A DNA stretch of 35,980 nucleotides from Gammaproteobacteria bacterium (lineage in GTDB: Bacteria > Pseudomonadota > Gammaproteobacteria > QZLD01): positions 1 to 35,980 of the forward strand of contig QZLD01000200.1 of assembly GCA_004796385.1 (NCBI GenBank), read 5' to 3'. Each line of letters opens with the position of its first letter. The first letter of the stretch is position 1. The notes below the pieces were generated by a model, which searched no databases, had not been told where the DNA came from, and saw nothing but the letters and a program-made list of their open reading frames with translations. This document shows positions 1,202 to 18,248 of this stretch, in pieces. The position numbers and the translations under genes were made by a program.

Positions 1202-2083
1202 TCACCAACTCTTTGATAAATTGAAATATAGATACCTATTAGAATAGCTATTGCTTATATCCACATCCTCAAAGTTCTCCTGCCCGATAATAGTCATCAT
1301 GGAATAGCTATTCCCCAAATCCCATGAAGAACCAACAGAAAATGAGCTCTTCTGCACATTAGCAAGGTTGTATACTGCACCCGCATTATTATCGACAGCA
1401 TAAATTCTCTCTCCCAACATGACATTTGCCGTTAAAAAGCTGATCGGCAGAATTCTCTCCCCGGTCAGCCAGTGTGTAAGATTTAACTCAATAGCCCTGG
1501 TAGTCAACCTCCCCTGAGACCTTAGGGTGTTATCAGGATAAATAAGATATGCGCCAACACTTAACCAGTCTTTTTTGTCGTTAAAACCAAAACCAAAACC
1601 AGGAGTATATTGATATACGGACAGATTATTCTGAAAACTCGAATAGGCAAAGCCAAAATTTATTGCATATGCACCGGAATACGGTACATATGTTGCCTGC
1701 GGAGCAAATGCCTTAACCTGATCTGTATCTTGCGTTGGATCATCATTATCAATGTAATGAAGATCACTTCTCAAAATAACCTTACCACTTATAGAATCGG
1801 AAAAAATATTATATCTGCCACTTAAATAGAGTGAGTTTTGGGAAATATCACCATACCCCAGATTAAACTTTACATTGGAATGATTAATACCAATTGTTAT
1901 ACCACCACTATCAAGATAATCCCCTGAAAAAATCACACCTCCTGAAACTATACTGTCACGCTTAACAGAGCCAGAATACTCACCAAAGAGAGATTGTGCA
2001 GTTATTGAATTATTCCAACTGCTTTCGGCAAAAGCTGTGCCTGATAAAATAATTGCCGCGCAAAAAAATATTCTTTTAATCAT
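1202..2083 (-). CDS. Predicted outer-membrane beta-barrel protein, unknown function
   Basis: 293 residues. A classical signal peptide (MIKRIFFCAAIILSGTAFA, cleavage after AFA) is followed by alternating polar/aromatic stretches typical of amphipathic beta strands, and the chain ends in Trp after an alternating strand (LYFNLSKSW), as many Gram-negative barrel proteins do. About 12-14 strands would fit the length, but I did not count them rigorously. I do not recognise a named family. It is the last gene of the PqqD/ATP-grasp operon; its ATG overlaps the stop of a possible 45-codon ORF. A channel or export pore for the product of the upstream enzymes is a guess from position only. Confidence 0.75.
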   Translation of the reverse strand: MIKRIFFCAAIILSGTAFAESSWNNSITAQSLFGEYSGSVKRDSIVSGGVIFSGDYLDSGGITIGINHSNVKFNLGYGDISQNSLYLSGRYNIFSDSISGKVILRSDLHYIDNDDPTQDTDQVKAFAPQATYVPYSGAYAINFGFAYSSFQNNLSVYQYTPGFGFGFNDKKDWLSVGAYLIYPDNTLRSQGRLTTRAIELNLTHWLTGERILPISFLTANVMLGERIYAVDNNAGAVYNLANVQKSSFSVGSSWDLGNSYSMMTIIGQENFEDVDISNSYSNRYLYFNLSKSW

Positions 2084-2217
2084 GTTATTTCCACTCCATA
2101 TTTCAGAGAAGCTCTAAGTGATTGCCTCTGAAAAAGTGCTTTCCCACACTTTTTCAGAAGTCTCTTCAAAAATACCGACACCCTCTCCATGAAAAGATCA
2201 GGTGGTTTTGCTTGCAT
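2080..2217 (-). CDS. Possible 45-residue cationic small protein, ATGA-coupled to the outer-membrane gene
   Basis: Too short for the ORF track. ATG at 2217, TGA at 2080-2082, sharing an ATGA overlap with the ATG of the next gene, the same coupling style as the genes upstream. The product begins MQAKPPDLFMERVSVFLKRL and is rich in Lys/Arg and Leu/Phe, so the middle could form a cationic amphipathic helix. There is no strong ribosome binding site (only AGG seven bases ahead), and part of the frame is made of a perfect inverted repeat (2127-2158), so it could be a chance ORF. If real, it is the only peptide-sized gene beside a PqqD-like protein. Confidence 0.3.
   Translation of the reverse strand: MQAKPPDLFMERVSVFLKRLLKKCGKALFQRQSLRASLKYGVEIT
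2127..2158. repeat. 12-bp perfect inverted repeat upstream of the outer-membrane gene
   Basis: TCTGAAAAAGTG (2127-2138) and CACTTTTTCAGA (2147-2158) flank an 8-base loop; one or two flanking pairs extend it with a G-U. It lies between the TPR gene stop and the outer-membrane gene start on the same transcript. The stem is AT-rich and has no U-run after it on either strand, so it is not a standard terminator; it could be an mRNA-processing or stability element that sets different levels for the last gene. Confidence 0.6.
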
Positions 2218-2251
2218 TTTCTGGCCTGCATTTGCACAACCACTAAACAAA

Positions 2252-2854
2252 CTAATTTACGTTAGCTATATAATTAATTGCCTCAATATGCCCGGGGTAG
2301 CGAATCAATATCCTTTTATAGTTTTTTTTTGCCTCATCCGTTTTACCAAGATTTGCATAGGATCTTGCCAGGTACACTAAAATAGTTGCATCTGTTGGAT
2401 AACGACTGGAAATTCGCTGCGCATGATCTTTCAGCGTCGCCCACTGCTTTCTGCTCTGCTCACACATCATAAGCCTTACGTGAGCCGTGTAATTCCATGG
2501 TGAAGCCTCTATTACCTGTCCTGCATAGCGTGTAACTTTTGCACATTCCTGCTTAGCCAGATAGGGCAGAGTTATTCCAAGCCTGGCATCAATAGAGCTG
2601 CTATTTATGGAAAGCGCCTTGCGATAATATCTTATTGAATCATCATAATTACCCAACATATAACTTAACCATGCAAAACGAATATTGGCAAACTCCTTAT
2701 CAGAAACCGTATTCAGGTTCTTTTCAATAAGAGCCGCGGCTTCACTGTATTTACCAGCAGCCTCGTATTTATAAGATTCAGACCATATATCGGCCTTTTC
2801 AGCCGCTGCCAATAAAGAAAAAAGCAATGTTAGTAGCATAATAAGACTTTTCAT
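2252..2854 (-). CDS. Periplasmic tetratricopeptide-repeat protein
   Basis: 200 residues with a signal peptide (MKSLIMLLTLLFSLLAAAEKA) followed by helical repeats of TPR type: YKYEAAGKYSEAAALIEKNL, LSYMLGNYDDSIRYYRKALSI and LARSYANLGKTDEAKKNYKRIL are clear units, with a more diverged one around residues 110-130. It is probably an envelope adaptor that holds a partner protein. Its ATG overlaps the stop of the urea-transporter/M23 gene (ATGA), so the two are translated together. No catalytic motif is visible, and the specific partner is unknown; the flanking M23 protein or the outer-membrane barrel are candidates by position. Confidence 0.85.
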   Translation of the reverse strand: MKSLIMLLTLLFSLLAAAEKADIWSESYKYEAAGKYSEAAALIEKNLNTVSDKEFANIRFAWLSYMLGNYDDSIRYYRKALSINSSSIDARLGITLPYLAKQECAKVTRYAGQVIEASPWNYTAHVRLMMCEQSRKQWATLKDHAQRISSRYPTDATILVYLARSYANLGKTDEAKKNYKRILIRYPGHIEAINYIANVN

Positions 2855-5058
2855 TCCGGACTTACCTCCGATTTATTATTGCTGTTTAGTATTATCCATT
2901 CTTCCACACCTGTATCTCCTTTTTGTTCTGTTAAGAGCATATTAAGCTCATATAATACCCCATCAAGTTCTGCAGATATTTTGTTAAAGCCTCTTTCAGG
3001 ACAAATCATGGAACTTGTTTTCAGGCTGATATTTATAAAAGGAGGCTTTACCAATTGATGAGTCGATTCCTGCACCCAGAATCCGCCTGTATCTTTCCAG
3101 CTTCTTTTATATTGACTTTTAAGCCCGGGCTGAAAAAGAGTCGTCATGTATAGAGCTATTTTTTTCAGCTTATTCAGAGGAACAAGTGAACCCGCCGGAC
3201 GATCATGCCAGCAGCAAGCCTCCTCTGAAAGAGGCGTCACACCATGACTTAAGAGCCAAATATCAAAAAAGATATCTTTAGCGCCGGCACGATCATAAAA
3301 TGCCAAAACCCCGTCATTTTCTTCAAAGGCACAACTTGCCCCTGAGCTTGTTTCAATTCTAAACTGTCCGGTAAGTGTTATAACAGTTATTAGCTCCAGT
3401 ATATCCTCTCTACTTTCTGAAGTTTTGCAGTTATAACAAATACGCCTGCCAACAGGAAGGTGAATAGGCCTTGCCAACTTTGCGGTTTTTTCTGCCGATT
3501 TTATTATCTCGCCCCGTTGAGGTATATGGTTAAGTTTGAAATATGCACTTCTGTTTTCAGCGCTTTCCACAATAACCGATAAAAGATGAAACGGTGCAGT
3601 AGCACTGCCTAAAGTTGCTTCGGTCTGAACATGTATATGCAAATGAGGCTGCGGCGATCTCCCCGAGTTTCCGCAATAGGCAATTATCATTCCCGGTTTT
3701 ACATAATCACCTTCATTGAGTTTTATACTACCGTTTTTCAGGTGGCACAAAAGAATATAAAGATTGCCTGATGTTTTTATTAGAATGAAATTTCCCCAGT
3801 TATTTTTGGTATCGACCTCTCCCGGAGTATTATCTGCAATACCATCATTTATCCTTACCACCTGACCATATGCAGGAGAAGTTACAGGAAGACCAAAGCA
3901 GAAGTAATCCTCAGTTTTTTTACCGTCATACTGATGGCTCTTGCCATTTTCCAATACAATAAAGTCCAGCGCATATTGCCATGGGGATTTATGTGTATGT
4001 TCTCCGTCAAACCCCTGATATACACTCCAACTGCCAAAAAATGGAACCGCAAGCGGCAAGCTATTAATATTGCCTGAGCGTGCTCTTGCTATTCTGGATT
4101 TTTCATAATTGACCTCGGGAATATTCGGGTCTTCAAGCAACAAATAAGGCGCTGCAAAAACAGCTCTTTTTCTCATAGCTGCTAATACCGAAAATGTTGC
4201 TACTAAAAACGGAATTGCAAATACCGGAATTCCGTAATCCTTGAGAAAGTTATGAGTAGCAGCAGTAATCAGAGCAGTGATCGCCGATGAGATCATGGCA
4301 AGAATAAAACTCTTCCATTCTGGAACTGTAAACATACCGCCAATAGCCATTGCTGTCAGGATAAAGTTAAAACCACTATTACCAAAACCACTTGTATTTG
4401 ATCCGCTTTTAAAAAAGAAAAAGAGTATTGTCCCTACGCAATAACCGCAAACAGCAAGAAGAGCAAGATACCTTGATGTTATAATGATTCCGCAAAAAAA
4501 AATGACTCCTGCCCAGAACAATGGAAGAAACAGAGTTGCACCAAGAGAGGTAAAAAAACCGTCGATAGCTGGATGCAGCACGGTTACAGCAGGCAAATAA
4601 GGCTTCATAAAGTGCGTTAGAGAGCCATACCCATCCACAGCAAAGGCTACTATAAGAGCAACCACAACGAAAGGCAGACTCAAAACTGGCAAATGCTCCC
4701 ACCGCCACAAAAGATCAGTGGCAACTGCAGTAACAAAAACAGCCATTATCGACCCAAAAATTATGAGTACGGCAAGGTAATGATCAAAATGATAGGTTGC
4801 ACCAAGTGTTAAGCCTACCAACAGGCTATTATACACATACATACCGTTTTCAATATGGGGAAAACGAAGAAGTCTTGCTGTAAGATATCCACTGATCGCT
4901 GCAACTACTCCTGATATACCTGTATTTGGCAAAAGAAAAGTTGCCATAATATAAGCCATACCGATAAGCGGGTGATGGCAGAACAAAATAGTGGCATACG
5001 CCTTTAAAATACCGTAAGGGGCCTTGCTTTTTGTAGTTAGGTTATCAGCAATCATCAT
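2851..5058 (-). CDS. Urea-transporter-family membrane domain fused to an M23 (LytM-type) peptidase domain
   Basis: The ORF track begins at a TTG (5112) deep inside the preceding gene; I prefer the ATG pair at 5058/5055, which overlaps the decarboxylase stop by 11-14 bp. Using ORF-track numbering, residues about 45-325 form a polytopic domain with urea-transporter (PF03253-like) signatures in two halves (YVYNSLLVGLTLGATY; GFNFILTAMAIGGMF). Residues about 355-500 resemble an M23 peptidase: HLHIHV (490-495) supplies the HxH motif and ALDF (381-384) the Asp ligand. The residue expected to be the first His (HxxxD) is Gln379, so zinc binding and peptidase activity are in doubt. The last 250 residues have a CYNC pair near 555 and no recognised domain. 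Known urea transporters normally lack such a C-terminus. Role inferred: a membrane transporter with an envelope-facing binding or peptidase module, serving the linked enzymes. Confidence 0.85.
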   Translation of the reverse strand: MMIADNLTTKSKAPYGILKAYATILFCHHPLIGMAYIMATFLLPNTGISGVVAAISGYLTARLLRFPHIENGMYVYNSLLVGLTLGATYHFDHYLAVLIIFGSIMAVFVTAVATDLLWRWEHLPVLSLPFVVVALIVAFAVDGYGSLTHFMKPYLPAVTVLHPAIDGFFTSLGATLFLPLFWAGVIFFCGIIITSRYLALLAVCGYCVGTILFFFFKSGSNTSGFGNSGFNFILTAMAIGGMFTVPEWKSFILAMISSAITALITAATHNFLKDYGIPVFAIPFLVATFSVLAAMRKRAVFAAPYLLLEDPNIPEVNYEKSRIARARSGNINSLPLAVPFFGSWSVYQGFDGEHTHKSPWQYALDFIVLENGKSHQYDGKKTEDYFCFGLPVTSPAYGQVVRINDGIADNTPGEVDTKNNWGNFILIKTSGNLYILLCHLKNGSIKLNEGDYVKPGMIIAYCGNSGRSPQPHLHIHVQTEATLGSATAPFHLLSVIVESAENRSAYFKLNHIPQRGEIIKSAEKTAKLARPIHLPVGRRICYNCKTSESREDILELITVITLTGQFRIETSSGASCAFEENDGVLAFYDRAGAKDIFFDIWLLSHGVTPLSEEACCWHDRPAGSLVPLNKLKKIALYMTTLFQPGLKSQYKRSWKDTGGFWVQESTHQLVKPPFINISLKTSSMICPERGFNKISAELDGVLYELNMLLTEQKGDTGVEEWIILNSNNKSEVSPE

Positions 5059-6439
5059 GATCCGGAGCAACAAATGTATTCTGCAAGTCCTGTGGCATTC
5101 TCTCTTGAGCAACCATTACAGAGAGATCTTCTGCAGCTCTAACCAGATCAACATCTCCACTCTCTCTTACCATTATCACATTTGGCCTGTACTCAATAAA
5201 CTGCATCCACTGTGTGTTGTTATATGCACCTACAGGACTAAATACCAAGATATCACCCACATCAAGCGACGGCATGGTAATACTTGCTCGCATAACATCT
5301 ATATTCATGCACAAAGGGCCGTAGAGAACAACATCTTCAGCTATTCCAGTAAGCTGTCTGACAGGAATAACATTATGGTTATACCAGAATGAAGTAAACA
5401 TATGATTAACCCCCGCATCCAGAATCACAGCTTTTCTACCATCAGGCAGCCTTTTATTAGCTACAACGGATGATGCAAGCACTTCAGCGTCATCTACTAC
5501 AGAGCGACCGGACTCCAGAATTAAGGTCGGTCTTTCTTTACCGTTAGCCTCTCGCTGACTTGTGGCTTCAATTAATGCACTGCAAATCACATCCGCGTAT
5601 TGATCAAACGTAGGAACAACTTGCTCAGGTGGCAAATATGTGCCCTGAAGAGAGTTTCTGGAACCAAAACCACCTCCGATATCAAGGCTTTCAATTAAAG
5701 CTCCTGTCTGAATTTCCACCATTTCCATGAAACTGCACATAATTTGAATCTGTACAGCATAGGCCTTGGGATCAAGCACGAATGTGCCTATATGACTGTG
5801 CAACCCGTTAAGATAAAGATTACCGCTTTTGGCTATACGAGTAGCCACATCCAGCGCCTGCCCGGACTCTACATTGAATCCGAATCTACTCCATGATTCA
5901 GTATATCCAGTATTAAAATTAAGCCTGATTGTAACCGGAACTTTACTGTTTTTTTCCTGTGCAATTTTTTCTATAAGAAAAAGCTCATCAAGATGATCAA
6001 TATGTATTTTAGCTCCTTCCGTAATTGCCTGCTCAAGAATTGCCCGCTCTTTATGGGGCCCATTGAAAATAATATATTTCCCAGGAACTCCTAAAGAGCG
6101 AGCCTTTTGATATTCAAATTCAGATACCACTTCAGCCCATGAACCTTCGCTATGCAAAGTATTACAAACAGCCCCAAGATAGTTGGTTTTGTAAGACCAG
6201 CCGTGAACAACTTTAGGATAACGCGACCTGAATGCCCTTAATAAACTGCGAACATTATTTTTTAACTGCCTTTCTGAAAGAATGAACAACGGAGAACCAA
6301 ACTGCCCTATAAGATCCTTATATAAAACGCCATCAATATTATCTGTATAATTTTTGGCAGAAGCTGCTCCAAATTTATTTGTAACACCAGAAACGTGTGT
6401 ATTTATTATTGGTTTTTCCCAAACTTTTTTATTATTCAT
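5045..6439 (-). CDS. Fold-type III PLP-dependent decarboxylase (LysA/ornithine decarboxylase-like)
   Basis: The ORF track starts at 6487, but the ATG at 6439 (MNNKKVWEKP) is preceded by AGAAGGA and avoids overlap with the ATP-grasp gene. The alanine-racemase-like barrel carries the PLP lysine in HGWSYKTN (residue 84 from this start), LHSHIGTF, the phosphate-binding DIGGGFG, ESGRS and the active-site Cys in YGPLCMNID (residue 377). This set is typical of diaminopimelate, ornithine/arginine and carboxynorspermidine decarboxylases, so it probably removes a carboxylate from an amino acid or an amino-acid conjugate. It is not housekeeping lysA by context, as it sits between an ATP-grasp ligase gene and a transporter gene. 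The substrate cannot be told from sequence. Confidence 0.9.
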   Translation of the reverse strand: MNNKKVWEKPIINTHVSGVTNKFGAASAKNYTDNIDGVLYKDLIGQFGSPLFILSERQLKNNVRSLLRAFRSRYPKVVHGWSYKTNYLGAVCNTLHSEGSWAEVVSEFEYQKARSLGVPGKYIIFNGPHKERAILEQAITEGAKIHIDHLDELFLIEKIAQEKNSKVPVTIRLNFNTGYTESWSRFGFNVESGQALDVATRIAKSGNLYLNGLHSHIGTFVLDPKAYAVQIQIMCSFMEMVEIQTGALIESLDIGGGFGSRNSLQGTYLPPEQVVPTFDQYADVICSALIEATSQREANGKERPTLILESGRSVVDDAEVLASSVVANKRLPDGRKAVILDAGVNHMFTSFWYNHNVIPVRQLTGIAEDVVLYGPLCMNIDVMRASITMPSLDVGDILVFSPVGAYNNTQWMQFIEYRPNVIMVRESGDVDLVRAAEDLSVMVAQERMPQDLQNTFVAPDHDDC

Positions 6440-6461
6440 TTTATGTCCTTCTAACTGTTGT

Positions 6462-7538
6462 TCAGGAAAGATTATTTGTAAAACCATGCATTATCATAGA
6501 CTCAAATTTTTCCAGATCCAGAATCAACTCTTCAGCATATCTTATAAACAAAACACCCGACTTGTAATCCGAATAATTTGTTGTTGTTTTATCTTCGTAC
6601 TCTTCGTTTAACACCAGATTAACCAACAATTCAGGCAAGTTCCTGCCAACCCCCCTGGAGAGATAAATCCACGCCGGAAAACGAGGGTTTATCTCTATAA
6701 GGTAGTAATTATTATTTTTATCAACCATCACCTCTACCTCAAGCGCCCCTTGCCAATTAGAAGCCTCTACAATCTTTGAGGCAGCATTCTCGAGTCTTTT
6801 ATCAGCAATACTGATTCCTGCCCAGGCTTTACCCTTGTCGGTAATCGCGCGTTTTTTCATCATAACCGCGCCCAGCATATTACCTTTGCCATCACCCAGA
6901 GCGGTTAGATTTACCTCTTCACCACTAATAAACTCCTGCACCAATATCGGATACCCCCACTCTAAAGCTATTTTATGAAAAGCGCCAACAGCCTCTGCCG
7001 GAGAGTGTGCAATATAAGCATCATAAAAGACGCCTTTAACAACCATTGGAAAGCCCCATCCATGCTTATGGCATGTATGGAAAAAATCTGCTGAGGTTAT
7101 TTTGGTAACAGCCGGGGTCTTTATACCTGCCATTTGAGCCAAACGTGGCAGATTGTCTTTTGCGCGAAGGTCAATCTGCTCTTCATTTGGAGAGAGAACT
7201 TTTATGCCAAGAGCTTCGAGTCGAGGTTTTATTCTGGCTATTGTTTTCAGCTCTGCATCAAGACACGGAATAAGTATATCAATTTTTTCAAGGGCGCTTA
7301 TCTGCTCCAACCTTGAGCATAATGCATCTTCTCCACTTGATGGATAGGGAATAAGATATGATGCATCGGCATATTCACTACGATACATCCCCGGATCAAG
7401 CACATCATAACTAAGCCCTATGATTTTAGCTTTGAGCTCCGCCGACTCTTTTATACATCTTGCCACAGCCATACCCGGCCCCGGATTATCCGGCTTAGCA
7501 TTCATACCGGTTATGGCAATAACAGGAGCAGGGCTCAT
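6462..7538 (-). CDS. ATP-grasp ligase (carbamoyl-phosphate-synthase-large-chain-like)
   Basis: 358 residues. An N-terminal alpha/beta pre-ATP-grasp domain (VIAITGMN at the start) leads to an ATP-grasp core of about residues 120-310: Lys168 in MVVKG, QEFISGEE (201-208) for the adenine-binding hinge and IEINPRF (281-287) for the Mg-ATP Glu and Asn. Such enzymes activate a carboxylate as acyl phosphate and join it to an amine or thiol. The ATG overlaps the PqqD-fusion stop (ATGA), and the decarboxylase begins 22 bp after its end, so the three are one translation unit. ATP-grasp ligases often act on peptides when an RRE/PqqD-like domain is nearby; here that is an inference. Confidence 0.9.
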   Translation of the reverse strand: MSPAPVIAITGMNAKPDNPGPGMAVARCIKESAELKAKIIGLSYDVLDPGMYRSEYADASYLIPYPSSGEDALCSRLEQISALEKIDILIPCLDAELKTIARIKPRLEALGIKVLSPNEEQIDLRAKDNLPRLAQMAGIKTPAVTKITSADFFHTCHKHGWGFPMVVKGVFYDAYIAHSPAEAVGAFHKIALEWGYPILVQEFISGEEVNLTALGDGKGNMLGAVMMKKRAITDKGKAWAGISIADKRLENAASKIVEASNWQGALEVEVMVDKNNNYYLIEINPRFPAWIYLSRGVGRNLPELLVNLVLNEEYEDKTTTNYSDYKSGVLFIRYAEELILDLEKFESMIMHGFTNNLS

Positions 7539-8311
7539 GAAAAAAGACCTCTTAGATTTACAGAGAAATCTAAAATATCTCTCTCTGCCATGCTACTTAA
7601 AACATCGTACTCATCAGTTATAATCGATGTTATTTCACCAACATCGGTTGTCCGCTGTAAAATTTTTAATATGGACATAGCGCTACTATTAGCGCTATAA
7701 CTTTTGCCGCTAACCGGATCAAAGATAAATCCGCTTTCGCTTACAGCAAGCCTTTTTATAACTTCCTGCGATGGAAACAGATCGCATTCAATCTCCCATG
7801 GCAGGTTCTTTTTCAAAGATGCAATTTTACGCCGGGAATCCTTACTGCCATAAGATACAACTTCACTCAAAGTAAACATTACCTCTCCCGCCAGCTCTTC
7901 ATGACTTCTGTCTGAAGTACCTTTTAAATGAACAATTGCCTGCAAAAGTGATTCCCTGAAGCTATGGCGCAAATCTTCAATAATATCAACATCAATCATG
8001 CGATCGATATTCTTGGCAACAAGCAAAGTCAACAGGGATGGTAATTCAAGCAAATTACCCATCTGTTGAAGATAACCTTCTTTGGAATCAACACCGTTAA
8101 AGCCATCAATAACCACTCTTAGCTTTCTTTGTTTAAGCTGAAACCAGCTTGCAACAATCACATCAAGAGACGATATATGCCTCAACATCTTTGCCTCAGG
8201 AATACCTGAATACCTGGAAACAAGCTGAGTAGTTATATTACCAAGACGGTTTTCAGATGCGATAACATCCAGACCTTTTAAAAGGCTCTCCTCAAAATTG
8301 CTATATGTCAT
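7535..8311 (-). CDS. TetR-like helix-turn-helix / PqqD-like fusion protein
   Basis: The ORF track uses a TTG at 8320; the ATG at 8311 (MTYSNFEESL) follows TTTGGAAATT and is preferred, giving 258 residues. Residues about 3-55 read like a TetR-type DNA-binding head (LLKGLDVIASENRLGNITTQ, then a second helix pair and SWFQLKQRKL). The middle is helical and not recognised. The last 75 residues match PqqD (FIFDPVSGKSYSANSSAMSI, then EITSIITDEYDV and ILDFSVNL). PqqD-like domains are the peptide-binding RRE of many RiPP pathways and also peptide chaperones. It is the first gene after the phased operator at 8401-8426. It might couple peptide binding to transcription or be a pure chaperone; the TetR assignment is the weaker of the two. 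Confidence 0.7.
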   Translation of the reverse strand: MTYSNFEESLLKGLDVIASENRLGNITTQLVSRYSGIPEAKMLRHISSLDVIVASWFQLKQRKLRVVIDGFNGVDSKEGYLQQMGNLLELPSLLTLLVAKNIDRMIDVDIIEDLRHSFRESLLQAIVHLKGTSDRSHEELAGEVMFTLSEVVSYGSKDSRRKIASLKKNLPWEIECDLFPSQEVIKRLAVSESGFIFDPVSGKSYSANSSAMSILKILQRTTDVGEITSIITDEYDVLSSMAERDILDFSVNLRGLFS

Positions 8312-8440: not shown

Positions 8441-9802
8441 TCAAGTTGGCAAACTAATAATAACCTGCAGCCCCTCTTTTACCCCATTACTCAGAGTAAT
8501 ATTCTCAGCAGAAATACTCCCCTTATGTACTGCCACTGCACCTGCAGCAATTGCAAGCCCTAGACCAAAACCCTCCGATTCTGAATTTCTATGCGACTGC
8601 TTATCTCTGAAAAATGGTTTAAAAATATCCTTCAGCTTTTCTTCACCAACACCACCGCCATCATCTGAAATGGTTATCGTGTATAAATGCACCTCCTTTT
8701 CAAGGCTTATCCTAACAACGCTTCCATCTGGTGAATATTTAAGGCTGTTTCTGATTATATTTTCAAAGGCACTATGTAACAGATTGCCACTGGTATTTAT
8801 CAGATACTCATTATCATCGACAATTAACTCAAACTGCATATTTCTGTTTTGGCTTTCAAAACCGGCATCTTTAATAATCTCTTGCAAAAGAATGCGGATA
8901 TCTATTACATCTTCAAGGGTATAGTGATGATGTTCTCCCAGAGTCGGCAAAGTTAATATCTGCTGAATCAGGTGGTTTATCCTAATAATCTCTCTTTCAA
9001 TAATCTTTATCTCTTTACCATCACCATTATGTTTCTGAGAGGCTATTTCAACAGCAACCTGAGCCCTGGCAAGAGGTGAACGTAATTCATGCGAAATATT
9101 CCTCAATAACTTTTTTTGATTATCTTTTGATAGTTGAAGCTTTGCAGTCATATCATTAAAGGTTTTTGCCAACATCCCAAGCTCATCATTTCTCTGACAG
9201 ATACTATTATCTATTTTTGTATCCAGATCACCATTTGTAATTAACTCTGTTGCAGCCTGCAGAGATGATATTGGCTTTGTCAGGTACTTTGCCAGGATAA
9301 GACATAATATCCCACATATCACTATTACTAAAAATGCTTTAGCTAAAAGAGAGTGCGGTGGATTTTCCATAATGAATTTACTATCCTCATTAAACGAAAA
9401 CCCAACTATGTAACGCACGTTGCTGTTTATATCTTCAATCTTCTTAATGTGTACAAAAGGTGAAGTAAAGTAGTCGCTTCGTTTCTCCTTTATATATCTT
9501 TGAATCTCCATATTTGCAGGCATTGGCAAGTTTCTGTTAAGCAGGTCATTACCAGCCTGATCAAGATAGAAAACCGGGGTTCTATATCCCGGAGGAGCGC
9601 TGTTAACTATCTGTTTATAGGCAACCTCGCCTCCAACAAAAAGCGCCTTTTCCCATGAACTCATGGCACTGTGAATTGTATCTTCCTGCTTTTTTATTTT
9701 AGGGTGAATCATCACAACAAAAACGACCATAAGAATCACGAGCGCCAATAGTGTTGTAAACAAAAAGCCCATAAAAAATCTAAAATATATTTTTGAAAAC
9801 AT
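8441..9802 (-). CDS. CpxA-like sensor histidine kinase
   Basis: 453 residues: TM1 about 8-31, periplasmic sensor about 32-152, TM2 about 153-172, HAMP about 173-225, HisKA with the phosphorylated His238 in NISHELRSPLARAQ, and HATPase_c with the N box (ENIIRNSLKYS), DDGGGVGE and GFGLGLAI. Architecture and H-box wording fit CpxA, the envelope-stress sensor kinase. It starts 5 bp after the regulator's stop. The periplasmic part is of CpxA size but I cannot verify a CpxP-type partner, and none is encoded in the window. It phosphorylates, and probably dephosphorylates, the paired regulator. Confidence 0.92.
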   Translation of the reverse strand: MFSKIYFRFFMGFLFTTLLALVILMVVFVVMIHPKIKKQEDTIHSAMSSWEKALFVGGEVAYKQIVNSAPPGYRTPVFYLDQAGNDLLNRNLPMPANMEIQRYIKEKRSDYFTSPFVHIKKIEDINSNVRYIVGFSFNEDSKFIMENPPHSLLAKAFLVIVICGILCLILAKYLTKPISSLQAATELITNGDLDTKIDNSICQRNDELGMLAKTFNDMTAKLQLSKDNQKKLLRNISHELRSPLARAQVAVEIASQKHNGDGKEIKIIEREIIRINHLIQQILTLPTLGEHHHYTLEDVIDIRILLQEIIKDAGFESQNRNMQFELIVDDNEYLINTSGNLLHSAFENIIRNSLKYSPDGSVVRISLEKEVHLYTITISDDGGGVGEEKLKDIFKPFFRDKQSHRNSESEGFGLGLAIAAGAVAVHKGSISAENITLSNGVKEGLQVIISLPT

Positions 9803-9807
9803 TGCTA

Positions 9808-10497
9808 TTACCCCGTAAAAATATACCCCTTACCCCTAACACTTTTAATAAACTCTTTACCACTCACATAAGGCTGAATTTTTTTACGCATATTACTTAC
9901 ATGAACATCAATACTTCTATCATATGGAGTCAACCTTCTACCCAAGGCTATTCTGGAAATATCCTCCTTTGAAACAGCAACGCCAAAATTCTTATTTAGT
10001 AAAGAAAATATATTGAATTCGGCTGTCGTGAGGTTAATATCAACATTATCAATTTTCACAACCAACTGTTCATCCAGAAACTCAAAGGGACTATCCTGCC
10101 GCTCTTGTTGCCTCTCAGTCGTTGGAGCAGAATTGCCAAATCTTCTGGTAACTGCAGTGATTCTCGCCAGCAACTCTCTTGGTCGACAAGGCTTGGCTAT
10201 ATAGTCGTCCGCCCCCATCTCTAAACCGACAACCAAATCAACCTCATCTCCTTTTGCTGTTAGCATTATTACTGGAAGAGACATAGACTGCTGTATTTTT
10301 TTCAGAACATCATAACCGCTCATATCAGGTAACATCACATCAAGAATAAGCAGATTGTAAACACCGCTTAATGCTACATTAATACCTTCCTGCCCGGTAT
10401 AAAAGGTGCCTACCCTCAACCCCTGCCCCTCAAGATACTCCTTAAGAAGAGAACATAGCTCTTTATCATCATCAATTATCAGAATATTTACAGTCAA
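9808..10497 (-). CDS. CpxR-like OmpR-family response regulator
   Basis: 229 residues. The receiver has the acid pocket IIDDD, phospho-acceptor Asp53 in ILDVMLPDMSG and Lys in YIAKPCRP; the C-terminal winged helix contains LGRRLTPYDRSIDVHVSNMR, closely resembling the CpxR recognition region. The start is a TTG with AAGGA eight bases ahead; no upstream in-frame ATG fits. Phased half-sites 70-95 bp upstream suggest autoregulation. It and its kinase lead directly into the PqqD/ATP-grasp operon, which has a matching operator, so that operon is the likely target. Whether this is the organism's only CpxR or a dedicated paralogue cannot be seen here. Confidence 0.92.
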   Translation of the reverse strand: MTVNILIIDDDKELCSLLKEYLEGQGLRVGTFYTGQEGINVALSGVYNLLILDVMLPDMSGYDVLKKIQQSMSLPVIMLTAKGDEVDLVVGLEMGADDYIAKPCRPRELLARITAVTRRFGNSAPTTERQQERQDSPFEFLDEQLVVKIDNVDINLTTAEFNIFSLLNKNFGVAVSKEDISRIALGRRLTPYDRSIDVHVSNMRKKIQPYVSGKEFIKSVRGKGYIFTG

Positions 10498-10775: not shown

Positions 10776-13049
10776 TTATAATTCATTTAATTCAGCACCT
10801 GGCAACCACTTTTCCAGCATAAGCTTCAGGTGTTCTGGTTTAAACGGCTTTGCCAGATAGTCATCCATTCCGGCAGCAAGGCATTTCTCTTTATCTCCTT
10901 CCATGGCATTTGCAGTTAATGCAATTACGGTAATTCCCGCTTTTGATTCTCCATCAGCACGAATTTTGGCTGTTGCATCAAAACCACTCATTTCCGGCAT
11001 CTGGCAATCCATTAGAACCAGATCATATTCATTTGCCATTACCAGCTCGTATGCCTCTTTTCCATTATTGGCTATATCTGCCTGCAATCCGAGCTTCATC
11101 AGCATTCCTAGGGCAACCTGCTGATTTACCATATTATCTTCTGCCAATAACAAGCTTGCTTTTCTTCCTATTGATTTAATTTTCTCTACTTCTTTTTTAA
11201 CTCCTGCCTCACCATCATTAACACCAAAAGCTTTGGATAATCCCGCATGAATACCATCCAATCTGATAGGTTTATAAACTACTACACCGTTAGAGAAATC
11301 TCTTTTGGATAATCTGGAGGAGAGGTAAATAAGAGCTGTTTTTTCTGATGTAACTTTCTGAGATATATCTTCCAATCCGTTATTATGCAGAAAATTCTCA
11401 TCACAAATCAGCAAATCGAAGCTATTAAAATCTGTACTTTGAAGTATGTTTTTATCTGCGCTTTCAGCTTTAATACCAAATCTTAACAGATACTCCTGCA
11501 ATATTTTTTCATTTATGCCTTCTGCTAAAATCAGACAAGATCTGCTTTCAAATATACTGTAGCTAAGATTATTTGCTGAGCTATCCACAGGAAGAAATGC
11601 AGTAAAAATAAAATTACTACCTTTACCTGGCTCCGACTCCACCCAAACTTCGCCCCCCATCTGTTCTACAAGAAGGCGGCTGATAGCAAGACCAAGACCT
11701 GTCCCTCCATACTTCCTTGTTGTTGAATCATCTGCCTGAGTAAATAATTCAAAAATACTCTTATGCTGCTCTTTTGGAATCCCTATTCCGGTGTCTTTTA
11801 TCTGACATTTCAGGCAACACTCTTCTTCTGTAACCTTATCCACTACAAGATCAATAAACACATACCCCTTTTCGGTAAACTTAATAGCATTACCAACAAG
11901 ATTAGTTATTACCTGTCTATAACGGGTTGTATCGCCTAACAACATTGCAGGAATATCTTCCGGAACTTTTACCGCCAGATCTATGCCTTTGTTTTCAGCT
12001 CTTTCCGAAAGAATCTCCGCCACCTCTTCAGTTGCGGTTGTCACAGAGAATGGAGCTTTCTCCAACACCATTTTTCCTGCTTCGATCTTTGAAAAATCCA
12101 AAATATCATTAAGTATTTCCAGCAGAGTTTCTCCAGAGTGATGAGCAATTTTCAGCAACTCACGCTGCTCCTCGGTTAACTCTGAATCAAGTGCTAATGC
12201 CAACATTCCAAGAACCCCATTCATCGGAGTTCTTATCTCGTGACTCATATTTGCCAAAAATGCGCTTTTAGCTGTATTTGCTGCCTCAGCTGCAACTTTT
12301 GCTTCTTCCAGATCCGATTGAGCTCGCTTCTGCTGGGTTATATCAGCACCATATGCTCTGGTAACATTTGAATCTGCCAGATAGTGAAAATGCCAGGCAA
12401 TCCAGTTCCCTTCTATCTCCGTCTCTACATCATGCACCTGCAGTTTTTCTGAAGAGCATTGGTCTATTATTTCGTAATAATCCTCTGGAAATACTGCCGG
12501 AAAACCGAAATCACTATACCCATAGCTAACAAGAAGTTCAGTCATTGCTGGATTGACATACATCAGGGCACCGGTTTCATCTATTTCTGCAACCGGAGAG
12601 GGGTGTAATTCGGCAAATGATACCAGTTGATTAGATTCTTCACGACTATATTCGAGAGATGAAACATCCCTAAAATTAAGCATGGTGATAAATGACATGC
12701 CATTCTGTTCAATCTGAGAAATCCGGTATTCAACTCTTACTATAATTCCATCATCCCTTATCCAGGAACCTTCAACAAAATCCTGATCCAGATCTTCATC
12801 ATTAAAATACATATAAGGACAATCATCAAGATCATGCAGTTCTTCACTACCATCGGCACAAACAAGATCATGTATACAACACCCCAAAGCCTTACCGCCA
12901 TCCCAACCCAATAAACCGGCTGTTGTCTCATTGTAATAAACAACATCGCCTTTAAGATCAAGCAATATAATACCGTCCTGCCACTGAGAAAGAATATCCC
13001 CCGCTATGTCTTTAAGTATTTCGTTATCTGGTTCAAAATAGGCTGCCAC
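10776..13049 (-). CDS. PAS-PAS hybrid histidine kinase with pseudo-receiver and receiver
   Basis: 757 residues from a GTG start with AAGGTG ahead. No membrane segment. PAS domains at about 12-130 and 140-240, then a coiled linker, HisKA with His270 ([14 protein letters not shown]), HATPase_c with DTGIGIPKE and [11 protein letters not shown], a receiver-like segment about 500-605 whose N-terminal acid pair is degraded (LILAEG), and a full receiver about 630-750 with Asp681 in [11 protein letters not shown]. There is no HPt domain, so phosphate must pass to an external HPt protein or the receiver acts internally. It follows the HD-GYP gene by 12 bp and is likely in the same operon, suggesting control of a c-di-GMP output. 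A cysteine-rich stretch in the first PAS (CCIHDLVC) might bind a ligand; this is speculative. Confidence 0.9.
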
Positions 13050-13061
13050 GAAACCACACCT

Positions 13062-14252
13062 TTATCTGTCATCTATCTTCAGCAGGTTAAGAGGATCGAC
13101 TCCGGAAATTGCCGGATCAATTATCTTTTCTATAACCATGCGGCCACTACCGGATTCAGACTCTTCCGCCAAATTAACAATCCTTGGATCGGAAAGAGGA
13201 TTACCGACAGAGTCATAACAAACTTTTACCGTTGGAAGAATTGGGGATTTTCGATTCATCTCTATAACAACCCCTTTTTCTCCAGACTCAAAAACCACTG
13301 CACTGGTTATTGGATAAACTCCTAACACATGAACCAAAGGCGGTATTATCGCGCCGTCTATTTTCCCCTCCTTAGATGCTTTATATAAATTCTTTAATGC
13401 TGTATTTGGTGTTCTTCCCTGATTACCCATTATGCCGTGCACCAACATATCATACATGTCCACAACTGTTAGCAAACGCCCCATATCAGATATATAATCT
13501 CCAGTAAGCCTGTTAGGATAACCTGAGCCATCAAGATACTCATGATGCTCACTTATTATCTGTATTACCTCTTCAGGAAGTTCTTTACTCTTTTTTAGAA
13601 TTTCAACCCCGAAAGCGGGATGCTTACTTACCAACTGTTCTTCTTTGTCTGTAAACGATTTATCTTTTGATACCAAATTTGCCGGCAATCTAACCCAACC
13701 AACATCATACATCATGGCGGCCATCCCCAGCATTTCTATCTTTTCATATTCATACTCAAGCCTGTTGGCAACTGCCGTTACCAAACTCAGAACACTAAAA
13801 GCATGTGACAACAAAACAGAACCATGTCTTTTCATGTGCATTAGAGTCAATAATGCCTGATCATTTCTAACAAGGCTCTCATAGGTCTGATTTACCACGG
13901 GAGTCAGAACCTTTGCCTCAACAGGCTGATCCTGCAATACGCTCTCCATAGCCTTGTTAATTGTCTCTTTGGCATTATTTTGCAGATTCTTAGCAGCCTT
14001 AATCTCTTTCTTTAGATCTTTGGAGACCCCCTTGGTAAGCTTTTCTATAGCTACTGCCTCTTCTGCTTTTTCACTCTTATCCAGATCGATAACGACCTTG
14101 GTAACATTAGCGCGCTTAAGGCGGGTAACGTCTTTTTCGTTTCTTATTCTGAAATTTTGAAAAGATTGGGGTAGTGAAACAGCAGAACCACCAAGCCTGT
14201 CCACAAACATGCCCGGTTTAAGCTCTGAAATATCTATCTCTTTAGTTGTCAT
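13062..14252 (-). CDS. HD-GYP domain protein with altered HD motif, DUF3391-like N-terminus
   Basis: 396 residues, ATG with GAGGG ahead. The N-terminus (EIDISELKPGMFVDRL) is the DUF3391-type domain usual before HD-GYP. The HD-GYP core is about 130-310: EHHEYLDGSGYPNRL (235-249) keeps HHE and GYP, but the site that should read HDxGK is MYDVGW (residues 181-186), so the metal-binding His is Tyr182 and the Lys is Trp186. HD-GYP proteins hydrolyse c-di-GMP with two or three metals bound by the HD pair, so catalysis is probably lost and it may act as a c-di-GMP sensor or scaffold. The codon is TAT in the genome. It is the first gene of the unit with the hybrid kinase and is divergent from the 165-residue protein gene. 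Confidence 0.88.
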   Translation of the reverse strand: MTTKEIDISELKPGMFVDRLGGSAVSLPQSFQNFRIRNEKDVTRLKRANVTKVVIDLDKSEKAEEAVAIEKLTKGVSKDLKKEIKAAKNLQNNAKETINKAMESVLQDQPVEAKVLTPVVNQTYESLVRNDQALLTLMHMKRHGSVLLSHAFSVLSLVTAVANRLEYEYEKIEMLGMAAMMYDVGWVRLPANLVSKDKSFTDKEEQLVSKHPAFGVEILKKSKELPEEVIQIISEHHEYLDGSGYPNRLTGDYISDMGRLLTVVDMYDMLVHGIMGNQGRTPNTALKNLYKASKEGKIDGAIIPPLVHVLGVYPITSAVVFESGEKGVVIEMNRKSPILPTVKVCYDSVGNPLSDPRIVNLAEESESGSGRMVIEKIIDPAISGVDPLNLLKIDDR

Positions 14253-14420
14253 ATAATACCCTCTCTTATTTGAGAATAGACCAGCAAAAACCGCTTTGCC
14301 ACTATTCCATAGCCCTTTTCAAAAGAATAATTGAGATACAACCTGTACAAACCAATATTTTTCGAGTAATTTACCTGCTTCTTATACGGTCATACTTTAT
14401 ATTTTACGGAGATTACGAAG

Positions 14421-14918
14421 TTGATTAGCGATAAAAAAGAATGGATTCAACAACTTCTGGATTGTTGTCGCTTTGTTCCTGATTTTGGCTCCCTTAATCT
14501 TATAAAACATGCGAAAAACAGTTTTGATAAATATTTATTTCTACTTGAAATGGTAGAAGGAAATGAAGGCCCTGAGATTGTCAGAGCGCTAATTGATTCC
14601 ATTCAAATTCAAAGTGACTCCGGAGCCTATCTGGTTACTGTTGATACTTTAAAAAAATTTCTTAAGCCAGGATATGCTCGAGCTTTTATTGACCCGTTAG
14701 CGCGACTTACTTTTCGCCGCCCGGATCTGGCAAGTGATTTGCTGTTCAACATGGCTAATTATTTTACTGAGGAACAAAGAATATTTGTTGATGAATTCAA
14801 TGATGAATTAAGACGCTCTCACTCCGGCGCAACAACTCAGTTAATTAATTTTATTAAAAGTGAAGAGAAAAAATCATTTTTTTCCGACTTTGCCGGAGTT
14901 CTGGCAAAACGCGGGTAA
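14421..14918 (+). CDS. Conserved-looking hypothetical protein, 165 residues
   Basis: TTG start with CGGAG nine bases ahead. No signal peptide or membrane segment; the sequence looks largely helical and soluble (WIQQLLDCCRFVPDF, DPLARLTFRRPDLASDLLFN, FVDEFNDELRRS). I do not recognise a family. It is the only plus-strand gene in a signalling block, divergent from the HD-GYP gene (168 bp between) and ends 2 bp from the convergent GGDEF-EAL gene. The helical character would suit a small partner or adaptor of these signalling proteins, but nothing in the sequence proves it. Confidence 0.65.
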   Translation: MISDKKEWIQQLLDCCRFVPDFGSLNLIKHAKNSFDKYLFLLEMVEGNEGPEIVRALIDSIQIQSDSGAYLVTVDTLKKFLKPGYARAFIDPLARLTFRRPDLASDLLFNMANYFTEEQRIFVDEFNDELRRSHSGATTQLINFIKSEEKKSFFSDFAGVLAKRG

Positions 14919-14920
14919 TA

Positions 14921-17455
14921 TTAAAACCCGAGACTGCCTTTAGGCTTGGATATAAAATATCCTTGTGCATAATCAACCCCCATCTCGCTAAGTATTCTGA
15001 CTATTTCGCTGTTATCTATATATTCAGCTACAGTCATCTTACCAAATGAATGGGCTATCTGATTTATGGATTTAACCACCGCCTTATCCATAGCATCTGA
15101 CACAACTCCCTGAGTAAACAAACCATCTATTTTTACATAGTCTATATCCAGGTGTTTTAGATGGCCAAAAGATGAAAAGCCGCTACCAAAATCATCAAGA
15201 GCAAATTTACATCCAAGATTCTTCAATTCAGATATCAACCTGCGGGCTGCTTCAATATTTGTAATAGCGCTGGTTTCCGTTATTTCAAAAGTCACATACT
15301 GACCTGAAACTTCATATTTATTAAGCAGCTTTCTAACGTATTCTCCAAGAGACTTGTCTATTATGGTGCTCCCGGATAAATTGATAGAAAAGCGTATATC
15401 CCGCCCAAGGCTGCGCTCATACGACAAAGAGCTTAATGCTCTTGATATAACCCATTTATCTATATCTATCATCAGATTAAAACGCTCAGCTGTTGGCAAA
15501 AACATATCAGGAGCAAAAAAAGCACCTTCATCATTAGCAAGCCTCAATAAAACTTCAAACAAAACAGGAGAGCTTTTTCCATCTTCATTTAATACTGCCC
15601 AAGGAGATGACAAATCAACCATCCCTTCACTTGGAACATCTAACCCCACCAAACTTCCCATTGGAACTATTGGCTGATAAACCAACTCGAATTTATCCTT
15701 ACCAAGCGCATCTCTAATTCGTGACGACCACCCCATATCAACATCCATAATGGTTCTGTCATCATTCTCTGCCGAATAGACATGAACCTTGTTCTTACCT
15801 GCATTCTTGGCTATATGACAAGCCAGATCAGCATTTGCAAGAACATCCCCGGGGCCTGTAGTTTCGGAATTTATAACTTCACAACCTATTGACGCTGTAA
15901 CCGGATACTTCTTTCCTTTATATTCAAATTTAATGTCTTCAATAATCCCCCGAAACCTGTTTGCTGCAAGCGGAATTTCATGAGTTCTAAGCTCTCTTAA
16001 AATAAAAGCAAACTCATCACCACCAAGACGAGCCATCGTGTCAGATGCTCTTAGTTTTGTCAGAAGCTGGTGCCCTATTTCAATAAGCAACTGATCTCCT
16101 GCAACATGTCCTGCTGTATCATTCAGATATTTAAAGCGATCAACATCCAGATAAAGCAATGCGCTAATATCGTCTCTATCATCGTTTCTCTGCTTTAAAC
16201 TAACCTCCTGATCAAGCTGCTTTTCAAAGTAATGTCTATTTAAAAGTTTAGTTAAAGGATCATGGTTTGCCTGCCATAAAAGTTCTTCTTCGAACAGTCT
16301 TTTTTCGGAAACATCCCTGAATGCTATTACTGAGCCATTATCTCCACCTGAAATATCCGCAGGATTAAGGCTGCATTCAACTGTTATAGACTGCCCACTT
16401 TTGGTAAAAAACTTTGTTTCAAGATCCTTTATAAAGCTGCACATATAATGCGCTTGCAAAAGTTCCCTACTACGATCATCAGGATACTGCCCAGAAACCT
16501 TATTATTAAACATGAATTCAGATGGATCAGCCCCTATAAGATCATACTCTCTGTATTCAAGCATCTCTAACGCAGCACGATTTATAAAAGATATTTTATT
16601 ATCGCAATCAATACCGAAAACTCCATCGGAAATTGATGAAAGAATACTTTGCAGATTTTCCCTTTCCGATTCAATTCTATTAATAGCATGCAAAGATCTT
16701 GAAACTGAGTTAATACGAGCCAGAAACATATCTTCCGACTGATCTTTAAAAACAAATTCGGTTGCTCCAGCCTCCAAACACTTTTTTACTGTCTTTGTTG
16801 AGTAACTTTCAAAAAAAACAACCTTAACAGTTCCGCAAGTATTGCTGTTTCTCATAAGCTTCATACACAACAAATCACCTGTCATATCCGGCATTTGATA
16901 ATCAATAATTACCATATCGTAATTTTTACTGCAGGCTTTATCATAACCCTCATTTACAGAAGATGCCGTGTCAACTTCATAATCAACACTTTTAAGAAGT
17001 GTCGAATATCTGTCCTGAAAAGCTTTAGAATCATCCACAAAAAGAACTTTTAACGGATGAACATCTGCAAAACCCACAAAAGCATCAATATTATCATCCT
17101 CTTCCGCAAGCCTCTCAATTGCATTAGCCAATTTATCCTTATAATTTCTCCTGAATAATAAAGACGTGCTGGTTCTGTTATTAACAACCTCCAGAATAAT
17201 TTCCGAAATATTTTCCGAAATAATCAGAATTGGCATATTTACAATCGGGAACTCTGAAAGTCGCTGATGAGGTAAATCACTTTTCCAGACTAGAATAACT
17301 GCAGAAAAAAAATTGGTATCCGTACTATTTCCAACAAGAACAATAAGATCATCAACAGAATCTGCAAACTTCACAGAGCAACCTATCTTTTCAAGAGAAA
17401 GCGACAGCTCCGACCTAAAATCCCTGTCGTTATCTACAATAAGTATCTGTTTCAA
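14921..17455 (-). CDS. REC-REC-PAS-GGDEF-EAL c-di-GMP signalling protein
   Basis: 844 residues from a TTG start (GAAGG eight bases ahead). Residues 1-115 form a receiver-like fold lacking the phospho-acceptor Asp; 135-255 a full receiver with Asp185 in IIDYQMPDMTG; 265-390 a PAS domain; 395-565 GGDEF with intact GGDEF (478-482) and an upstream RxxD inhibitory site (RASD, 469-472); 585-840 EAL with the signature as EVL (634-636), NLS, FEITET, LDDFGSG and AEYID present. Both cyclase and phosphodiesterase activities look possible; the motif changes (EVL, AEYID for AEGVE) leave the balance open. Phosphorylation by one of the neighbouring kinases is the expected input. The gene is convergent with the 165-residue protein gene with only 2 bp between. 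Confidence 0.92.
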   Translation of the reverse strand: MKQILIVDNDRDFRSELSLSLEKIGCSVKFADSVDDLIVLVGNSTDTNFFSAVILVWKSDLPHQRLSEFPIVNMPILIISENISEIILEVVNNRTSTSLLFRRNYKDKLANAIERLAEEDDNIDAFVGFADVHPLKVLFVDDSKAFQDRYSTLLKSVDYEVDTASSVNEGYDKACSKNYDMVIIDYQMPDMTGDLLCMKLMRNSNTCGTVKVVFFESYSTKTVKKCLEAGATEFVFKDQSEDMFLARINSVSRSLHAINRIESERENLQSILSSISDGVFGIDCDNKISFINRAALEMLEYREYDLIGADPSEFMFNNKVSGQYPDDRSRELLQAHYMCSFIKDLETKFFTKSGQSITVECSLNPADISGGDNGSVIAFRDVSEKRLFEEELLWQANHDPLTKLLNRHYFEKQLDQEVSLKQRNDDRDDISALLYLDVDRFKYLNDTAGHVAGDQLLIEIGHQLLTKLRASDTMARLGGDEFAFILRELRTHEIPLAANRFRGIIEDIKFEYKGKKYPVTASIGCEVINSETTGPGDVLANADLACHIAKNAGKNKVHVYSAENDDRTIMDVDMGWSSRIRDALGKDKFELVYQPIVPMGSLVGLDVPSEGMVDLSSPWAVLNEDGKSSPVLFEVLLRLANDEGAFFAPDMFLPTAERFNLMIDIDKWVISRALSSLSYERSLGRDIRFSINLSGSTIIDKSLGEYVRKLLNKYEVSGQYVTFEITETSAITNIEAARRLISELKNLGCKFALDDFGSGFSSFGHLKHLDIDYVKIDGLFTQGVVSDAMDKAVVKSINQIAHSFGKMTVAEYIDNSEIVRILSEMGVDYAQGYFISKPKGSLGF

Positions 17456-17592
17456 AACTCCCGCCTTCTTTATCCTGCTCCATAAGATAAATATGGTTCA
17501 CTCAAGTTCAGAAAGCAAATTTGAAAGGTTATTTTGGTGAGGCGTGTCTCATTATTATTTATCAATTGCCAATATAACGTTAATAAGGACTA

Positions 17593-18069
17593 CTAGGAAT
17601 CGGACGAGTCAGGCAAAATTTCGGAAACCATCTTATCTAAACCGCCAACACTCTTCTCATGACTCTCTCTTATCTCCGAAGAACTTTTTGCGGAATATGC
17701 TTTACGAATATCCTCGGCACTACTCTTTACCATTTTTCCGTTTACTTCGGCTCCACAAGAAATCTCAATAACCTCATAATAAACACTACCACTAACTCTG
17801 GCCTTACCAGCCAACTCCAGACGCGAAGCAGCCCTAACATCCCCCTTAACAACCCCATTGATAACCACATTAGGAACATTTATATTGCCATCAACAACAC
17901 CGGAGCTACTAACTATAAGCGTAGCATTTTCAGCTTCAGCAACATCAATATCACCTTTAACAAAACCATCAACATGTAATCCACCATCAAAACTGATATT
18001 ACCGATAACATTTGTATTCTGCCCAACAAGAGTATCAATTCTGGAACTAGCTGACTTTCTGCCCCACAT
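17593..18069 (-). CDS. Bactofilin (polymer-forming cytoskeletal protein)
   Basis: The ORF track begins at 18084, but GGAGG lies just inside that stretch and directs the ATG at 18069 (MWGRKSASSRIDTLVGQNTN), giving 158 residues. IDTLVG, GNISFDGGLHVDGFVKGDI and repeated short hydrophobic/Gly beta turns to about residue 120 are the right-handed beta-helix of the bactofilin (DUF583) family, followed by a disordered polar tail. Bactofilins polymerise without nucleotide at the inner membrane and place enzymes or signalling proteins at poles or septa. Here it sits between two c-di-GMP proteins, which suggests, without proof, that it scaffolds one of them. The short N-terminal tail could be a membrane-targeting patch. 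Confidence 0.93.
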   Translation of the reverse strand: MWGRKSASSRIDTLVGQNTNVIGNISFDGGLHVDGFVKGDIDVAEAENATLIVSSSGVVDGNINVPNVVINGVVKGDVRAASRLELAGKARVSGSVYYEVIEISCGAEVNGKMVKSSAEDIRKAYSAKSSSEIRESHEKSVGGLDKMVSEILPDSSDS

Positions 18070-18248
18070 ACAAAATACCTCCATAATTAGTTTATTAAAA
18101 ACAAATCATCCATAAAATCTCATCAGCCTCGTAGCAAAAAACAAACTGCCATGACCACTAAACAAGGATTAATTGAGTGCGGCAGGCATAATAACACAAT
18201 ACCTCATAAGCAAGAAAAATATTTTCCCATTAGAATCTTATATATATT

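Follow-up and report, generated by a model that had tools for sequence, protein, structure and literature searches.

A six-gene operon found in several bacterial phyla encodes a decarboxylase with a lasso-leader-like tail and a PqqD-type recognition domain as its likely partner

We analyzed a 35,980-nucleotide stretch of contig QZLD01000200.1 from the genome assembly of a gammaproteobacterium (GCA_004796385.1), hereafter the window, which contains an operon of six co-directional genes on the minus strand. In order, these encode a PqqD fusion protein, an ATP-grasp ligase, a fold-III pyridoxal phosphate (PLP)-dependent decarboxylase, a urea transporter (UT) fold joined to an M23 peptidase (UT-M23), a tetratricopeptide repeat (TPR) protein and a putative outer-membrane barrel. 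From the sequences, and with a probability of roughly 0.58, we propose that the operon is a biosynthetic cassette in which the PqqD domain, a recognition element (RRE) of the kind that binds leaders of ribosomally synthesized and post-translationally modified peptides (RiPPs), grips the tail of the decarboxylase and so links this enzyme with the ATP-grasp ligase, and in which an amide-linked amino acid is decarboxylated and passed to UT-M23. The client of the RRE would be the operon's own decarboxylase, via its lasso-leader-like tail, rather than a precursor peptide, and the grip on the tail would bring ligase and decarboxylase into one complex. The ligase would join an amino acid to a partner through an amide (or thioester) bond in such a way that the alpha-amino and alpha-carboxyl groups stay free; the FigC/BtrK-like decarboxylase would then remove the alpha-carboxyl. 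The product would be handed to the UT-M23 membrane protein, whose probably cytoplasmic peptidase could shorten it; onward passage through the envelope would fall to the TPR and barrel proteins.

The features of the locus, with junctions and starts taken from refined gene calls on the window sequence, are as follows.

7535..8311, minus strand: TetR-like helix-turn-helix (HTH) and PqqD-type RRE fusion, 258 amino acids (PF05402, 3.6e-8; RRE domain at 7538-7774)
6462..7538, minus strand: ATP-grasp ligase, CPSase/PylC-like, 358 amino acids (ATPgrasp_Ter, 7.6e-11; orthologues in 83 distinct loci)
5045..6439, minus strand: fold-III PLP decarboxylase, 464 amino acids, FigC/FslC-like, with a CM..D motif (domain match, 4.1e-33)
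6368..6421, minus strand: RiPP-leader-like tail of the decarboxylase, W7-E-K-P10-I-I12-...-G18-V-T-N21-K22-F23-G24
2851..5058, minus strand: urea-transporter fold, M23 peptidase and C-terminal beta-rich domain (UT, 4.1e-53; M23, 1.3e-12)
3619..4023, minus strand: M23 (LytM-type) domain of the UT-M23 protein
2252..2854, minus strand: TPR protein with a signal-like N-terminus, 200 amino acids (TPR domain match)
1202..2083, minus strand: conserved putative outer-membrane barrel, 293 amino acids (family alignment)
8441..10497, minus strand: CpxA/CpxR-like two-component system upstream of the operon, a possible regulator but not part of the core

The PqqD fusion and ATP-grasp genes share a 4-bp ATGA overlap, as do the UT-M23 and TPR genes. 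The ATP-grasp and decarboxylase genes are separated by 22 bp, with a ribosome-binding-site-like aagga preceding the ATG at 6439, and the UT-M23 gene, starting at 5055 or 5058, overlaps the decarboxylase gene by 11-14 bp; the 168-bp gap between the TPR and barrel genes is the one looser junction beside these four tight ones. The refined coordinates reproduce the order, shared direction and four tight junctions that the initial annotation of the window had described for the six genes, and its domain assignments (PqqD, ATP-grasp, fold-III decarboxylase, UT with M23, and TPR) were upheld by profile matches, with catalytic residues intact. An open frame of some 55 codons within the 168-bp gap was considered as a separate precursor and rejected, since the sister locus L029 has nothing corresponding to it. 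An anti-phage defence system was also considered and dropped, PADLOC models giving no match. Promoter and terminator scans returned no signals above chance level.

When one genome per species was scanned, relatives of the ATP-grasp ligase were found at 39 loci, and strong profile matches (E <= 1e-40) occurred in 12 of the 369 class genomes, 37 of the 399 phylum genomes, 27 of the 297 Bacteroidota genomes and 7 of the 198 Spirochaetota genomes sampled. The loci are spread over Gamma- and Zetaproteobacteria, Magnetococcales, Bacteroidota and Spirochaetota, and the pathway is frequent in Zetaproteobacteria and Bacteroidota. Linkage was counted at those of the 83 distinct ATP-grasp loci that have enough flanking DNA: the PqqD gene lies directly upstream of the ATP-grasp gene in 78/78 testable loci, the decarboxylase gene directly downstream in 76/76, and a UT(-M23) gene comes next after the decarboxylase in 66/69. 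At one of the three exceptions, the divergent locus L089, inspection revealed at that place a stand-alone urea-transporter-like gene with no M23 domain. The TPR and barrel genes mostly come after, in an order that varies between loci, and none of the remaining neighbour genes is common to the entire locus set. The operon recurs far beyond chance, and the joint occurrence of its genes in distant genomes, which the initial annotation had put forward as a check, is borne out across phyla. No orthologue was detected on plasmids, where the best ATP-grasp match reached at most 28.5% identity and the best decarboxylase match at most about 30%.

The decarboxylase scored 205.5 bits against the LysA model TIGR01048 (cut-off 297.9 not reached) and 205.4 bits against the FslC model NF041039 (cut-off 500 not reached). 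A tree computed by a quick search from 37 operon sequences and 25 controls, with long branches present, separates the two sets at one branch that has full support in the Shimodaira-Hasegawa-like approximate likelihood ratio test (SH-aLRT). There is no grouping with housekeeping LysA, the outcome against which the initial annotation had cautioned, or with the other housekeeping relatives found. The N-citrylornithine decarboxylase FigC (7KH2) is the closest protein of solved structure, both in sequence and in fold; the operon enzyme shares with it a C-M-x-x-D motif, whereas the diaminopimelate decarboxylase (DAPDC) of M. jannaschii has C-E-S-S-D; BtrK is also among the relatives. The N-citrylornithine decarboxylase clade includes SbnH, AcsE, MccE and BtrK, whose substrates are amino acids joined to something else at the far end, and specialised metabolism has been predicted for clade-2 members other than DAPDC or D-ODC (PMC7857480). 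Neither the operon nor its conserved neighbours encode an NRPS-independent siderophore (NIS) synthetase. By sequence, then, the operon decarboxylase is not a housekeeping LysA. That the genes are housekeeping lysine or polyamine enzymes brought together by accident is extremely improbable: the LysA model does match the decarboxylase, at 205 bits, but this lies below the cut-off, a separate LysA scoring 527 bits is encoded in the same genome, the operon enzymes form a clade of their own, and chance neighbourhood is rejected because the gene order is nearly invariant over the 83 loci.

All 78 distinct operon decarboxylases carry a disordered N-terminal tail of about 24 residues with the consensus KK-[W/Y/F]xxPx[I/L]...G..NKFG. 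The pattern [WYF]xxPx[ILVM], which the catalytic YGSPLF motif of the decarboxylase also fits, is present in 78/78 tails. Its position 0 is aromatic (45 W, 30 Y and 3 F), P at +3 and I/L/V/M at +5 are invariant, and basic residues usually precede it (K or R at -3; K, R or L at -2). The second half of the tail is also strongly conserved, with G at +11 in 68 sequences, N at +14 in 66, K at +15 in 73, F at +16 in 61 and G at +17 in 71; K[FYHSIV]G occurs in 73/78 tails, and the residue after the last glycine is mostly S, A or G. The spacing between tail and catalytic domain is 42 residues in 71/78. In the predicted structure, the tail blocks have a predicted local distance difference test (pLDDT) score of about 57-69, against a mean of 91.6 for the whole decarboxylase model. 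No tail was found in 19 LysA controls, and 1/29 non-operon relatives contained a chance match to the motif within the first 60 residues.

Judged by sequence, the first half of the tail is the lasso-leader motif: lasso leaders bound by discrete RREs carry [Y/W]xxPx[L/V/I/F/A] (PMC13381572), and a W/Y/LxxP/L/I leader motif has also been listed (PMC12710340). The core genes of the operon include neither a lasso B2 protease nor an Asn-synthase-like cyclase, and a scan of the loci for a separate leader-bearing precursor peptide yielded no coherent candidate. The full tail motif occurs once in the genome that contains the window, at the decarboxylase gene.

The best Protein Data Bank matches of the PqqD-domain family profile are the lasso RREs TbiB1 (3e-10) and TfuB1 (1.9e-9), and the PqqD of the PQQ pathway (3g2b) scores lower, at 0.008. 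Leader-contact positions, mapped through the profile alignment from the PbaB1/LppB contacts quoted in PMC13381572, are kept in the operon RREs: an aromatic residue at 26 (32/34), Y/F56 (34/34), D66 (29/34), F70 (31/34) and L74 (30/34). By these criteria, the operon domain is kin to the discrete lasso-type RREs, with the leader-contact residues retained. Because the motif, the RRE partner and the gene linkage coincide, we infer, strongly, that the RRE binds the tail of the decarboxylase. The initial annotation had overlooked the likely target of the PqqD protein, the decarboxylase itself with its lasso-like tail.

The N-terminal domain of the PqqD protein, of about 190 amino acids, weakly resembles a TetR-type HTH, as judged from a sub-threshold TetR_N match in one homologue and from the alignment; like the tail, this domain had not been pointed out in the initial annotation. 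One may ask whether the operon is controlled by the TetR-PqqD fusion, acting as a sensor of the decarboxylase tail, with the RRE having no catalytic role. We consider this very unlikely: the HTH-like fusion, found in the family of the window, Zetaproteobacteria and Magnetococcales, and the CpxRA-like genes upstream would suit such a regulatory pair, but in most other loci, including the Bacteroidota and Spirochaetota loci retrieved, the PqqD domain lacks a recognisable HTH and yet is always present.

Two natural controls fit the joining of the two enzymes by RRE and tail. On a Streptomyces zaomyceticus plasmid (L225, 3992-6265), a related ATP-grasp is fused to a CM..D decarboxylase, and no PqqD gene lies within the 8.8 kb examined around it; there, the fusion may stand in for the adapter. 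In a Clostridia locus, a related decarboxylase-ligase pair occurs in which both PqqD and the tail are missing. Several points weigh against the proposed role of the tail. The fused and the tailless controls are one case each, and the exclusion of a precursor encoded elsewhere extends to one genome and to the full motif only. Moreover, the GxxNKFG half lies outside the part gripped by known RREs, and the tail may therefore be more than a docking tag.

The conservation of GxxNKFG beyond the RRE-binding part would be explained if the tail lysine (K22) were an amino-acyl carrier site. The RRE-held ATP-grasp would then load an amino acid on the lysine side chain, the tail would swing into the decarboxylase site, and M23 or another step would free the product, a logic equivalent to BtrJ/BtrI/BtrK, except that carrier and enzyme would be one protein. 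The conservation of lysine at +15 and of K[FYHSIV]G, each in 73/78 tails, exceeds the needs of RRE binding, BtrK is a relative of the decarboxylase, and the ligase has matches to the PylC family; PylC joins a carboxyl to the epsilon-amine of lysine. These PylC-family matches are weak, however, and the lysine is replaced with R in L028 and with T in L189. We regard this scheme, the main alternative to the proposed cassette, as possible but doubtful; it would be a thiotemplate-like pathway without carrier protein or precursor peptide, and as such, still tentatively, categorically new.

The UT-M23 model is confident (pLDDT 92.6): the first ~330 residues match solved urea transporters, and the M23 domain and a beta-rich C-terminal domain follow. 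The protein scores 114 bits against urea_trans_yut and does not reach the cut-off of 274.6, but the Pfam UT domain and the fold do match. At a position in the second half where dvUT has E (GEVMFQ), the operon proteins have A or S, and the cargo may therefore not be urea. The zinc and catalytic residues of M23, H355, D364, H438, H471 and H473 (numbered from the 5055 start) are invariant in 42 homologues. The termini of known urea transporters are cytoplasmic, and a strongly K/R-rich segment follows the last membrane helix of UT-M23; by the positive-inside rule, these features together indicate that the M23 domain probably faces the cytoplasm. A split between UT and M23 in L160 was discarded as support for this orientation, as it coincides with a homopolymer and may reflect a frameshift. 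Ligation, decarboxylation and transport, the sequence of events envisaged by the initial annotation, is still the most reasonable chemistry, but the envelope, where it located the M23 peptidase, is probably not the right place.

Glycyl-glycine endopeptidases are among the M23 relatives, which is pertinent to the idea that the tail is a genuine RiPP precursor whose very long follower is the decarboxylase, M23 cutting after KFG and the modified peptide being exported. The glycine at +17 (71/78), the mostly S, A or G residue after it and the invariant M23 residues would suit such cleavage. Nevertheless, the would-be core is almost invariant across phyla, unlike natural-product cores, one enzyme would be spent per peptide, and L089, where no M23 was seen beside the urea-transporter-like gene, keeps NKQG in its tail; we find this reading unlikely. 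The barrel protein belongs to a conserved family with a signal-peptide-like N-terminus and has no Pfam or NCBIfam match.

Returning to the proposed cassette, several of its parts resemble known systems. The lasso B1 proteins (discrete RREs TbiB1, TfuB1 and PbaB1) share the RRE family and the [Y/W]xxP leader motif with the operon, but in lasso systems the leader is on a precursor peptide, whereas here it is on the decarboxylase, and the core has no cyclase or B2 protease. FigC/FslC (7KH2) shares fold, nearest sequence and the CM..D motif with the operon decarboxylase; its partners, a NIS synthetase and a major facilitator superfamily (MFS) exporter, are absent from the operon, and the FigC family lacks the RRE partner. 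The butirosin BtrJ/BtrK/BtrI cassette likewise combines an ATP-grasp enzyme (BtrJ) with a fold-III decarboxylase whose amino acid substrate is tethered, but BtrK, of the same fold as the operon enzyme, uses an acyl-carrier protein; none is seen in the operon, which has RRE and leader instead. The urea transporters (dvUT, 3K3F; SLC14) share the UT fold of ~330 residues, to which the operon protein adds M23 and the beta-rich domain. Graspetide and other ATP-grasp RiPP systems also place an ATP-grasp in a RiPP-like setting, but the operon has no precursor peptide and its ligase is of the CPSase/PylC type.

The operon was not found described in the openly searchable literature, although a mention in a subscription gene-neighbourhood survey is possible. 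Searches for a urea transporter paired with M23, with or without ATP-grasp, found none, and those for PqqD with ATP-grasp, decarboxylase and urea transporter, or for a RiPP recognition element with diaminopimelate decarboxylase, returned nothing relevant; the ATP-grasp surveys covered, which did not extend to older subscription ones, contain no PqqD and decarboxylase in such a context. Recognition of leaders by RREs is already known; a leader on an enzyme, in multiple phyla and with no precursor peptide found, appears to be new. RREs serve as the hallmark of RiPP clusters and leader motifs as that of precursors; the operon has both, in strict linkage over several phyla, but with the leader on a metabolic enzyme. 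If the proposal is true, leader recognition would be a general means by which enzymes are brought into complexes, such loci will be misread by tools that search for precursors, and a pathway of wide distribution, leading to a small product, could be tested with a short synthetic peptide.

Some loci have additional neighbours. A sister genome of the same family (G001; contigs C114 and C115, loci L023 and L024) has the whole operon twice, in diverged copies that are each preceded by a CpxRA-like pair of their own, and in Accumulibacter (L062, 14649-16882) the operon's end overlaps genes for a histidine kinase and a response regulator. The CpxRA-like genes upstream of the operons of the window and of L023/L024, together with the kinase and regulator of L062, hint at envelope-stress control. 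Asparagine-synthase-family genes, which belong to the same superfamily as the lasso cyclase, lie near UT-M23 in L182 (1533-3035, confirmed by Pfam) and, as suggested by a similar sequence start, in L184 (3389-4867) and L185 (1812-3329).

Elsewhere in the window, two perfect DnaA-box sequences (TTATCCACA), inverted and 5 bp apart, occupy 909-931; the barrel gene lies on one side of them and, at the edge of the contig, a coding region that runs leftward on the other. The regions 10776-19613 and 27249-33193 are dense in signalling genes, read from the sequence as hybrid histidine kinases and GGDEF/EAL-like and HD-GYP-like proteins, and a bactofilin-like gene, identified in the same manner, lies amid them at 17593-18084. 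A large secreted metalloprotease-like protein with a HEIGHNLGATHD motif and a glycine/serine-rich, anchor-like C-terminal end is encoded at 22908-24794.

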